Positions 12,875 to 17,224 of a DNA stretch of 45,118 nucleotides are shown piece by piece. The DNA is from Sediminibacterium sp. (GTDB lineage Bacteria > Bacteroidota > Bacteroidia > Chitinophagales > Chitinophagaceae). The translations under genes and the position numbers were made by a program. The stretch lies in the NCBI GenBank assembly GCA_028687975.1, contig JAQTZD010000009.1:1-45118 (forward strand), in the 5' to 3' direction. How positions within the stretch are numbered: position 1 is the stretch's first letter; each line of letters opens with the position of its first letter. The notes below the pieces were generated by a model that was not told the DNA's origin, did not search any database, and saw only the letters and a list, made by a program, of their open reading frames with translations.

Positions 12875-13900
12875 ATGCAAAAAAGGATACTACTGCTCAT
12901 CATCATTTTATACTCTGCCACCAGGCCTGCAGCGCAGACGCTTGGTGGCAATGCTGTTTTTAATTTCCTTACGCAACCGAATACAGCACAGCTTTCTGCC
13001 CTGGGCGGTGTAAACATTTCTTCCATGGGCAACGATGTGGGCATGGCCTTTCACAATCCTGCATTGCTTCGCCAGAAAATGCACCGCCAGGTGAATACTT
13101 CCTTTAATTCCTTTGTTGCAGGTATTCGTCATTACAGTGCTACCGGGGCATTTTGGCTGGACCGGCCCGGTCTGAATATTGGCATTGGAGTTCAATACCT
13201 CAATTACGGAAGTCTGGTACAAACAGATGCTTCCGGAAATATCCTGGGTAGCATTCGGCCAAACGATTATATGGTGCAGCTGATGGCTTCCACACAATAC
13301 CTGGAGCGGTTCAGGATCGGGGTCAGTGCCAAACTGATCCGTTCCGAATACGGTGCATACCGGTCTACGGGAATGGCTGCGGATGTCGGATTAACCTATA
13401 CGGATACGGCAGCCCTGTTTCAGGCTGCCGTGGTGGTGAAGAACATGGGTGTGCAGCTTCGCACTTATGAACCGGGTAAACAGAAAGAAGAACTACCCTT
13501 TGATGTTCAGGCCGGAATCAGTAAAAAACTCGCCAATGCACCCGTACAGTTTTCTTTAACGGCACACCATCTGCACCGCCTGAACATCCGGTACAACGAC
13601 ACGGCATTTAATGCAGCAGAAGGTGATCTCAGGAGTAATGGATTGCAGAAGGTTTTTTCGCACCTGGTACTCTCTTCACAGATTGATTTATCCGAATTTG
13701 TTGAGTTGAATCTTGGCTATAATTTTCTCAGAAGGCAGGACCTGAACGTATTTGGAGCCACCGGAGGTTTGAACGGATTTACCTGTGGTGTGGGAATACT
13801 GCTGCGAAAACTGCAGATCCGTTATGCCACCGGCTTTTACCAGCAACAGATGTTTCACCAGTTTTCACTCAACTTTAATTTTTCCGGAACTCCGCTTTAA
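12875..13900 (+). CDS. porQ: Type IX secretion system protein PorQ-like
   Basis: Signal peptide, VFNFLTQPNTAQLSALGGVNISSMGNDVGMAFHNPALL; PorV/PorQ-like barrel features. Confidence 0.82.
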   Translation: MQKRILLLIIILYSATRPAAQTLGGNAVFNFLTQPNTAQLSALGGVNISSMGNDVGMAFHNPALLRQKMHRQVNTSFNSFVAGIRHYSATGAFWLDRPGLNIGIGVQYLNYGSLVQTDASGNILGSIRPNDYMVQLMASTQYLERFRIGVSAKLIRSEYGAYRSTGMAADVGLTYTDTAALFQAAVVVKNMGVQLRTYEPGKQKEELPFDVQAGISKKLANAPVQFSLTAHHLHRLNIRYNDTAFNAAEGDLRSNGLQKVFSHLVLSSQIDLSEFVELNLGYNFLRRQDLNVFGATGGLNGFTCGVGILLRKLQIRYATGFYQQQMFHQFSLNFNFSGTPL

Positions 13901-13991: not shown

Positions 13992-15524
13992 ATGATACGT
14001 ATTGCTGTTAGTAGTTTACTGATTGTTTCTCTGGCTTCCTGCGGCATCCTAAAGCCCCGGAGTCAGGCGCCTGTTGCTTTTGCCAATAATATTGTAGTGG
14101 CCCACCGGGGCGCTTTCAAGCAAAACAAGCTTCCTGAAAATTCCATTGCAGCGCTGAAACAGGCCATTGCCTTGAAATGTACCGGCTCGGAGTTTGATGT
14201 AAGAATGACTTCGGACGATTCGCTGATCATCAATCATGATCCGCATTACAAAAAATTGCCGATTGAAGAAACCACCTATGCCGACTTGATCCGGCATCCC
14301 CTTTCCAACGGTGAAAAACTGCCCACGCTCCGGGAATATTTACTGGCCGGTATGGAAAACAATCCCGCTACCCGGCTGGTTTGTGAAATAAAACCTTCGG
14401 AAGTCAGCAAGGAAAGAGGGCAGCGCATTGCAGCAAAAGCAGTAGCCCTGGTGCACGAATTGCGTGCAAGAGAGCGGGTGGTCTACATCAGTTTTGATTA
14501 TGATATTCTGAAGAAGATAGTTGCACTGGAGCCTGGTGTTCCTACCCAGTACCTGAACGGTGACCGCTCGCCTGAACAACTGAAGGCAGATGGCATTACC
14601 GGCGCCGATTATCATTATTCTGTGTTTAAGAAATACCCCGAATGGATTACTGCTGCCAAAAAACTCGGCATTGCTTTGAATGCCTGGACGGTGAATGATG
14701 CAGAAACCATGGAGTGGCTGATGGCCAATGAGTTTGAATTCATCACCACCAATGAACCCGAGTTATTGCTGGAACTGATGCCGAAAACACTCACCAGAAA
14801 CGGATGGAAACTGGTATGGAGCGATGAATTCAATTACCAGGGTTTGCCAGACACCAGCAAATGGGGATATCATCCCGGTGCACACGGAGGCGGCAACGAT
14901 GAACTGCAATATTATACGGCCAATGATACCATGAATGCGGTGGTATCCAATGGCGTGCTCAGGATCATTGCCAGTAAGGAAAACAGGGAAAACAAATCCT
15001 ATACTTCTTCCAAGCTGCAGACCAGGAACAAGGCAGCCTTTACCTATGGCCGTTTTGAAGTGAGGGCCAAACTTCCTGCCGGAAGAGGTACCTGGCCGGC
15101 TATCTGGATGCTTGGAACCAATATAGATTCGATCAGCTGGCCGGCTTGCGGAGAAATCGACATCATGGAACATGTGGGCTATGAAAAAGACAGCATCTAT
15201 GGCACCATTCATTCCGAGGCTTACAATCACATCAAAGGAACACAAAAGAGCAAAGCCATTTATACAGCGGATCCTTATACACGCTTTCATGTATATGCAA
15301 TAGAATGGACGCCGGAGAAAATTGATTTTATCATGGATGGCGTGGTGTACAATCAAATCCGTAACGAGCACCTTACTGTAAGAGAATGGCCCTTTGATGC
15401 GCCTTTTTTCCTGATCCTGAACCTGGCCATTGGTGGGGGATGGGGTGGTAGAAAAGGGGTGGATGATGCAATCTTTCCTGCAACCATGGAAGTAGACTGG
15501 GTTCGGGTATTTCAGGCCAGATAA
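13992..15524 (+). CDS. Lipoprotein with fused glycerophosphodiester phosphodiesterase and GH16 domains
   Basis: Lipobox SLASCG; GDPD motifs VAHRGAFKQNKLPENS, SEFDVRMTSDDSLIINHD; GH16 motifs WKLVWSDEFNYQGLPDTSKW, GTWPAIWMLG, GEIDIMEHVG. One continuous ORF. Confidence 0.9.
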   Translation: MIRIAVSSLLIVSLASCGILKPRSQAPVAFANNIVVAHRGAFKQNKLPENSIAALKQAIALKCTGSEFDVRMTSDDSLIINHDPHYKKLPIEETTYADLIRHPLSNGEKLPTLREYLLAGMENNPATRLVCEIKPSEVSKERGQRIAAKAVALVHELRARERVVYISFDYDILKKIVALEPGVPTQYLNGDRSPEQLKADGITGADYHYSVFKKYPEWITAAKKLGIALNAWTVNDAETMEWLMANEFEFITTNEPELLLELMPKTLTRNGWKLVWSDEFNYQGLPDTSKWGYHPGAHGGGNDELQYYTANDTMNAVVSNGVLRIIASKENRENKSYTSSKLQTRNKAAFTYGRFEVRAKLPAGRGTWPAIWMLGTNIDSISWPACGEIDIMEHVGYEKDSIYGTIHSEAYNHIKGTQKSKAIYTADPYTRFHVYAIEWTPEKIDFIMDGVVYNQIRNEHLTVREWPFDAPFFLILNLAIGGGWGGRKGVDDAIFPATMEVDWVRVFQAR

Positions 15525-15615: not shown

Positions 15616-17139
15616 TTATAAATCAAATTGAATACCCTGGGCCAGTGGTAAACTGTTGCCCCAGTTAATAGTATTGGTTTGTCTGCGCATGTAGGCTTTC
15701 CAGGCATCGCTTCCGCTTTCTCTTCCACCGCCTGTTTCTTTTTCGCCTCCAAATGCACCACCAATTTCTGCCCCACTGGTACCAATATTGACGTTGGCAA
15801 TACCACAATCACTTCCCTGTGCAGAGAGGAACTGTTCTGCCTCCCGCAGGTTCAGCGTCATGATGGCCGAAGACAATCCCTGTGGAACACCGTTTTGCAT
15901 GGCAATGGCTTCATCGAGGGTGCTGTACTTCATTACATATAAAATAGGAGCAAAGGTTTCATGTTGTACAATTGCAAGGTCGTTGGTTACCTCAGCAATG
16001 CATGGTTTTACATAGCAACCACTTTCATAGCCAGGTCCTGTAACAACGCCTCCTTCTACCAGGAACTTACCACCCTGTGCCTTACACTGTTCAATAGCGC
16101 TCAGGTACATATTTACCGCTGCGGTATCGATCAACGGACCAACGTGATTTTTTGTATCCAATGGATCACCAATGCGCAGCTGTGCGTAGGCTTTAACCAG
16201 TTTTGCAGTGAATGTATCAAACACAGATTCGTGTATGATCAGTCTTCTGGTGGTGGTGCAACGCTGGCCGGCAGTACCTACCGCTCCAAACACTGCGCCA
16301 ATCAGAGACATATCGAGGTCGGCATGCTGAGAAACAATGATGGCATTGTTACCACCCAGTTCCAACAGGCTTTTGCCCAGTCTTGCTGCAACCGTTGCGC
16401 TCAGTTCCTTACCCATTCTGGTAGAACCGGTAGCTGATACCAGCGGAATCCGGGTATCCTTGCTCATCCATTCACCTACTTCCCTTGCGCCCTGTACCAG
16501 ACAGTTTACCCCTTCAGGTACATTGTTTTTTGCAAATACTTCGGCAACTATTTTTTGTACGGCAATACCGCAAAGTGGTGTTTTTTCGCTGGGCTTCCAG
16601 ATGGTGGTGTTGCCGCAAATCCAAGCCAATGCAGCATTCCAGCTCCATACAGCAACCGGAAAGTTGAATGCAGAGATGATGCTTACAATACCCAATGGAT
16701 GCCACTGCTCATACATTCTGTGTGTAGGGCGCTCACTGTGCATGGTTTGTCCGAACAACTGGCGGGATAATCCTACTGCCAGATCACAGATATCAATCAT
16801 TTCCTGTACTTCACCATATCCTTCCTGCAGGCTTTTACCCATTTCATAACTTACCAGTTTGCCCAACGGCTCTTTGTACTGGCGCAGTGCATCACCCACC
16901 TGGCGAACTACTTCACCTCTTTTAGGCGCGGGCCATTTCTGCCATTCTTTGGCAACACTCAATGACTGGTTAATCACTTGTTCGTAAGCGGCTTTATCTG
17001 CGGCTACGGTGCTGCCGATTTTTTTGCCGTCTACGGGAGAAAAAGAGTCAATGGTTGCACCATTGCTTTCGATCCATTTGGTACCTGTTGATACTCCTTT
17101 GTTGGCTGTCTGAATGCCAAGTTGTTCTAAGAATTGCAT
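15616..17139 (-). CDS. Aldehyde dehydrogenase, ALDH7 (aminoadipate-semialdehyde dehydrogenase-like) family
   Basis: ISAFNFPVAVWSWNAALAWICGNTTIWKPSEKTPL, LLELGGNNAIIV, GAVFGAVGTAGQRCTTTRRLIIH. Start MQFLEQLG at 17139. Confidence 0.9.
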   Translation of the reverse strand: MQFLEQLGIQTANKGVSTGTKWIESNGATIDSFSPVDGKKIGSTVAADKAAYEQVINQSLSVAKEWQKWPAPKRGEVVRQVGDALRQYKEPLGKLVSYEMGKSLQEGYGEVQEMIDICDLAVGLSRQLFGQTMHSERPTHRMYEQWHPLGIVSIISAFNFPVAVWSWNAALAWICGNTTIWKPSEKTPLCGIAVQKIVAEVFAKNNVPEGVNCLVQGAREVGEWMSKDTRIPLVSATGSTRMGKELSATVAARLGKSLLELGGNNAIIVSQHADLDMSLIGAVFGAVGTAGQRCTTTRRLIIHESVFDTFTAKLVKAYAQLRIGDPLDTKNHVGPLIDTAAVNMYLSAIEQCKAQGGKFLVEGGVVTGPGYESGCYVKPCIAEVTNDLAIVQHETFAPILYVMKYSTLDEAIAMQNGVPQGLSSAIMTLNLREAEQFLSAQGSDCGIANVNIGTSGAEIGGAFGGEKETGGGRESGSDAWKAYMRRQTNTINWGNSLPLAQGIQFDL

Positions 17140-17224
17140 GCAGTCGTAATTTGACGCAAAGGTAAGGATTAACCCCCTGTGGCGTTGCAAAAGCAAGAAT
17201 AAGTTTCTATGTTTTTCGGCGGAA

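Follow-up and report, generated by a model that had tools for sequence, protein, structure and literature searches.

One gene in a 45,118-nucleotide stretch of Sediminibacterium DNA (contig JAQTZD010000009.1 of assembly GCA_028687975.1; the whole stretch is called the window here) encodes a lipoprotein in which a GDPD phosphodiesterase is fused to a GH16 beta-glucanase. Going by motifs and gene context, we think it probable, though well short of assured, that this is one lipoprotein with two active enzymes that would work on one polymer, a phosphoglycerol-bearing beta-1,3-glucan derived, for example, from Proteobacteria. We propose this substrate because relatives of the gene sit in PULs with GlpK, GlpF and an EEP phosphatase, because the GDPD exchanges its glucanase partner, and because a glycerophosphorylated beta-1,3-glucan is already known.

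The earlier note on this DNA had described a single open reading frame with a complete-looking GDPD domain, a very short linker and a complete-looking GH16 domain, and domain searches bore this out. The match to PF03009 (89.1 bits; Pfam cut-off, 23.6 bits) covered amino acids (aa) 38 to 257 and profile positions 1 to 243 of 244, and the match to PF00722 (101.2 bits; cut-off, 22 bits) covered aa 309 to 504 and profile positions 7 to 174 of 175. Alignment to solved GH16 chains placed the start of the GH16 domain at about aa 270 to 272, and the linker measures about 14 aa. Both active sites, which the note likewise described as looking intact, have all of their residues: H38, R39, E67, D69, H82, E132, and K134 in the GDPD half and E388, D390, and E393 in the GH16 half (Table 1). 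On these motifs, the GDPD half is predicted to hydrolyze glycerophosphodiesters and the GH16 half to cleave beta-1,3-glucan internally. The signal region, MIRIAVSSLLIVSLASC, has a lipobox, read by eye as L-A-S-C with the cysteine at position 17, and none of the residues that follow (GILKPRSQ) is acidic. In Bacteroidota, non-acidic residues after the lipobox cysteine go with retention on the periplasmic side, which would suggest that the fusion lipoprotein stays at the inner, periplasmic face of the outer membrane. The gene encodes the sole GH16 protein of its genome, a 3.0-Mb metagenome-assembled genome (MAG), and the second GDPD of that genome is distant, with 27% identity to the GDPD of the fusion.

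Table 1. Features of the GDPD-GH16 fusion gene (positions are those of the window)
Feature	Position	Strand	Basis or remark
GDPD-GH16 fusion lipoprotein, whole gene	13992..15524	+	ATG to stop, 510 aa
Lipoprotein signal peptide, lipobox LAS-C (Cys17)	13992..14042	+	Read from sequence
GDPD domain, aa 38-257	14103..14762	+	Pfam PF03009, 89.1 bits; genome search, 91.7 bits
GDPD catalytic H38-R39	14103..14108	+	Invariant in 65/65 fused homologues
GDPD E67-x-D69, presumed metal ligands	14190..14198	+	Invariant in 65/65; role taken from GDPD family
GDPD second catalytic His, H82	14235..14237	+	Invariant in 65/65
GDPD E132-x-K134	14385..14393	+	Invariant in 65/65
Linker, about aa 258-271	14763..14804	+	Domain ends; mostly helix (model secondary structure)
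GH16 laminarinase-type domain, about aa 272-508	14805..15515	+	Pfam PF00722; solved laminarinases
GH16 catalytic motif E388-I-D390-I-M-E393	15153..15170	+	E, D, E invariant in 65/65

The same fused gene was found in an independent MAG (L034; 94% identity) and in two further genomes, G170 (88%) and G195 (70%), and a homologue from Pedobacter terrae (A0A1G7XNR7; 7ww4 and 7wwc), with the same domain order over its full length, has been crystallized; it matched the window protein with 588 bits over aa 32 to 508 at 54% identity. The fusion is therefore no artifact, and an assembly error or read-through was ruled out by the fused homologues in many genomes, one of them solved. Strong purifying selection acts on both domains, with dN/dS values for GDPD and GH16 of 0.031 and 0.043, respectively, against L034 and of 0.044 and 0.052 against L074; the signal region is under relaxed constraint (0.40 to 0.97). 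An AlphaFold2 model of the fusion protein, for which 40 fused homologues were aligned, reached a mean pLDDT of 93.6 and a pTM of 0.87 and superposed on 7wwc and 7ww4 with a TM score of 0.92 and an rmsd of 1.2 to 1.4 Å.

Across an alignment of 65 fused homologues, in which one genome is counted twice, the active-site residues of both domains and the GDPD residue W232 never vary. Tandem and solo sequences in the tree sets retain these residues as well, and no loss of either active site was seen in fused, tandem, or solo proteins. The glutamate of the GDPD PEN motif (E49), which the earlier note had listed within an HRG...EN motif, is a glutamine in 38 of the 65 fused relatives; it is thus not to be counted as essential, and we dropped it as a catalytic requirement. 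All six tandem GDPDs have glutamate in this column, as do 24 of the 29 solo GDPDs in the tree set.

The 65 fused homologues are spread over five Bacteroidota families and stand beside tandem and unlinked versions, so homologues are not always encoded as separate genes. The fusion counts per genome were taken from match tables and are lower bounds: in the window's family at least 3 of 150 genomes carry a fused gene, as do at least 3 of 61 in its genus and at least 8 of 395 across the class, and in the families of genomes G518, G287, and G447 fused genes occur in at least 13 of 351, at least 27 of 201, and at least 17 of 121 genomes, respectively. Through genome G524, the order to which the window belongs has a second family with the fusion, and the Flavobacteriaceae (L039, Flavivirga) are among the families with the fusion, as judged by named loci. 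The GDPD gene directly precedes a GH16 gene in six loci, namely, L038 (Pricia), L046 and L048 (Maribacter), L139, L145, and L148; most Chitinophagaceae carry the GDPD and GH16 genes apart from each other. At L212, in the same place as L139, GDPD and GH16 lie in one frame with one stop codon and 12 bases between them, and the GH16 gene retains its own signal peptide.

The same two enzymes have been joined or parted many times. The fused state required 12 changes on the GDPD tree, where starred branches force at least 6, and 10 changes on the GH16 tree, where they force at least 5; both trees were made quickly and have many weak forks, and the change counts cannot separate fusion from fission. 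A single clade of all fused proteins was rejected by AU tests on the GDPD tree (P = 1.8e-43) and on the GH16 tree (P = 1.2e-8), and with it a single ancestral fusion followed by vertical descent. Relative to the window protein, the fusion at L131 has a close GDPD (72%) and a distant GH16 (50%), and the fusion at L103 is the reverse (56% for GDPD and 68% for GH16). Such repeated joining of GDPD and GH16 points to a joint task. One fused reading frame, at L195 (G1214:C31), is broken inside the GH16 part into 340 aa and then 154 aa on the same strand; the break may be a frameshift, a pseudogene, or a sequencing error.

We named the neighbors of the fused genes by Pfam and NCBIfam. In flavobacteria, the order GlpK-GlpF-regulator-SusC-SusD-[GDPD-GH16]-EEP-GH3 is found at L039, L221, L222, and L224, with variants at L203, L218, and L219, and some loci add a sulfatase. 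The genes around the fusion encode a SusC-type TonB receptor, SusD, a MIP-family channel, a regulator that combines propeller and Y_Y_Y domains, a GH3 protein over the BglX cut-off, a glycerol kinase GlpK over its own cut-off, and an EEP protein whose closest relatives among solved structures are 3mpr and 4c1r, the latter a mannosyl-6-phosphatase. At L212 the order on one strand is sulfatase-GlpK-GlpF-GDPD-GH16, with 12 bases from GlpF to GDPD. We compared 20-kb stretches around 48 fused or tandem, 21 solo-GH16, and 20 solo-GDPD loci. GlpK and GlpF occurred in 8, 0, and 1 of these, respectively, EEP in 16, 1, and 2, and SusD in 25, 7, and 9. By our own arithmetic, the chance of finding one glpK in a 20-kb stretch of a 4-Mb genome is about 0.5%, and 8 of 48 is far above this; the linkage is confined to a set of related flavobacteria, and the eight loci are not independent. 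One further locus, L265, has GlpK-GlpF-regulator-SusC-SusD-GDPD-EEP without the GH16 half, as if that half had been lost from a fused gene.

In several genomes, GDPDs of the same set that are not fused also belong to PULs, and some of these solo GDPDs have a different partner. A GH144 protein, identified by the Pfam Glycoamylase domain and matching the endo-beta-1,2-glucanase 5gzh with 717 bits, is present in 6 of the 20 solo-GDPD loci, and at L275 it is adjacent to the solo GDPD. No GH144 was found in the 20-kb stretches of the 48 fused or tandem loci or of the 21 solo-GH16 loci. The GDPD of this set thus goes with a cutter for either backbone, beta-1,3 or beta-1,2. Both backbones are known with phosphoglycerol: a glycerophosphorylated beta-1,3-glucan is known from Pseudomonas aeruginosa PA14 (PMC2997053), and for the OPG of Escherichia coli a beta-1,2 main chain has been described, to which OpgB adds phosphoglycerol (PMC10514313). 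What makes us prefer a shared phosphoglycerol-glucan substrate is, more than the fusion alone, this partner swap together with the two known backbones.

The window copy has a different setting. No SusC or SusD gene lies beside it; it has lon and porQ on one side and an aldehyde dehydrogenase gene on the other. The porQ gene (type IX secretion system; positions 12,875 to 13,900, plus strand; NCBIfam equivalog, 296 bits against a cut-off of 220) ends 91 bases upstream on the same strand. L034 and L198 share the order lon-porQ-GDPD-GH16, but L199, a 70% identical copy, does not. Convergent with the fusion gene is a gene for L-piperidine-6-carboxylate dehydrogenase (positions 15,616 to 17,196, minus strand; strong match, 818 bits, cut-off of 730), an enzyme of lysine catabolism. 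Elsewhere in the same genome, a beta-glucan locus (L281; G000:C44:1001-21000) has SusD, two GH30, GH144, GH3, and GH2 genes in a row, with one of the GH30 proteins 65% like an endo-beta-1,6-glucanase family member; a second GH144 gene is at L280, and one glpK is on another contig. Parts of the pathway thus exist in the window's genome, unclustered with the fusion gene. Turnover of the organism's own OPG was rejected because no MdoG/OpgG family protein (PF04349) was matched in its genome, G000; the E. coli control did match.

If the substrate is a phosphoglycerol-bearing beta-1,3-glucan, the GDPD half would hydrolyze the phosphodiester, freeing glycerol-3-phosphate, the usual product of a GDPD, or glycerol, and baring the backbone, which the GH16 half would then cut internally. 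In the related flavobacteria, SusC and SusD would take up the glucan, the EEP-family phosphatase would remove leftover phosphate, and GH3 would convert the product to glucose, while glycerol would enter via GlpF and be phosphorylated by GlpK. The earlier note had offered a glycerophosphoryl-decorated beta-glucan as an example of a substrate with both bonds. That suggestion gained from the relatives' PULs, the exchange with a beta-1,2-glucanase, and the P. aeruginosa glucan (PMC2997053), but not from the window copy, and we keep it as a proposed substrate. Indeed, the location of that copy outside a PUL, with glpK on another contig, counts against it.

GDPD enzymes usually act on phospholipid-derived glycerophosphodiesters, which also speaks against a glucan substrate. 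The two halves could instead have two substrates within one food source, the GH16 half attacking wall or storage beta-glucan of fungi, algae, or plants and the GDPD half scavenging glycerophosphodiesters of dead cells for phosphate and glycerol, with the fusion merely keeping both on the envelope. We consider this unlikely, though worth keeping in view. In six loci from the family of G287 (L204, L231, L232, L233, L235, and L237), a gene for a phosphocholine-specific phospholipase C (TIGR03396, 741 bits at L204) comes directly after the fused gene, often with a regulator-like gene next, and a two-substrate arrangement therefore stays alive; GlpK, GlpF, and the phosphatase would equally suit glycerol derived from phospholipids. 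Sphingobacterium proteins labeled both GH16 and GDPD were found among those secreted on wheat straw (PMC4666044), an observation that speaks for secretion and not for substrate. However, separate substrates leave unexplained why the GDPD is retained in SusC/SusD glycan loci of many lineages and why its partner, when not GH16, is a beta-1,2-glucanase, and none of the flavobacterial or Chitinophagaceae loci examined had the phospholipase C neighbor.

Since GDPD-fold enzymes vary in substrate, the group removed from a beta-glucan or a glucan-bound glycoconjugate might also be another phosphodiester, such as phosphocholine, phosphoethanolamine, or a fungal GPI remnant. The phospholipase C neighbor, which handles phosphocholine esters, and the likeness of the EEP phosphatase to 4c1r would fit, but the glycerol kinase and glycerol channel of the flavobacterial loci indicate glycerol as a product, and we hold such a group to be improbable. 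It is scarcely credible that two neighboring genes became joined by chance, as an incident or artifact with no shared task. Separate homologues of each half are indeed common in Chitinophagaceae, but the recurrence of the fusion, the purifying selection on both halves, the crystallized fused homologue, and the tandem pairs all contradict a chance join.

Returning to the phosphoglycerol-glucan substrate, it is quite possible, although we would not yet lean toward it, that Bacteroidota widely eat the phosphoglycerol glucans of other bacteria with a GDPD that takes off the phosphoglycerol and that recurrent fusion or clustering has brought together with a matched cutter (GH16 for beta-1,3 and GH144 for beta-1,2), and then with a phosphatase, glycerol uptake, and glycerol kinase. 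The GDPD-GH16 architecture itself is not new, being already in the PDB. A literature search by enzyme names found no paper dealing directly with PUL-borne GDPDs or with a GDPD paired with a laminarinase, and phosphoglycerol-glucan utilization with interchangeable cutters seems undescribed in the literature searched, which covered few subscription journals. Such a pathway, if real, would tell what the PUL-linked GDPDs of one clade act on and would account for a crystal structure, already deposited, that comes with no role for its GDPD half. It would also point to a food web with Bacteroidota as consumers of glucans from the periplasm and biofilms of Proteobacteria, and it would provide a source of enzymes for stripping phosphoglycerol from aminoglycoside-binding biofilm glucans; that such glucans bind aminoglycosides in biofilms is reported by Sadovskaya 2010, as cited in PMC2997053.

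Among known systems, the P. terrae protein is the closest. Both structures carry the title beta-1,3(4)-glucanase; one is called "multidomain," and the other includes laminaritriose, which in 7wwc is bound by the GH16 part. A modeling paper (PMC12448869) gives 7wwc as from P. terrae with no accompanying publication, and a literature search by PDB codes found no published role for the GDPD half. The likely relatives of that protein have a lipobox-free signal peptide and other gene neighbors, whereas the window protein is a lipoprotein. The GH144 endo-beta-1,2-glucanase (CpSGL, 5gzh) loci contain GDPDs of the same set, and the window's genome has two GH144 genes away from the fusion, but the glucanase of those loci is a protein separate from the GDPD and specific for beta-1,2-glucan. 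Relatives of the fusion gene also sit in loci like the beta-glucan PULs of Bacteroidota (SusC/SusD, GH16, GH3, and GH30); compared with the usual ones, these loci add the phosphodiesterase, phosphatase, glycerol channel, and glycerol kinase, while the window copy lies outside any PUL. The closest solved stand-alone GDPD, BDI_0402 of Parabacteroides distasonis (3no3; TM score of 0.94 by target length, 39% identity), is without GH16 and has a function assigned by family only. The laminarinase of Rhodothermus marinus (3iln) is without a GDPD domain, and its GH16 domain is 54% identical to that of the window protein, with a TM score of 0.93 by target length and the same E-D-E motif.
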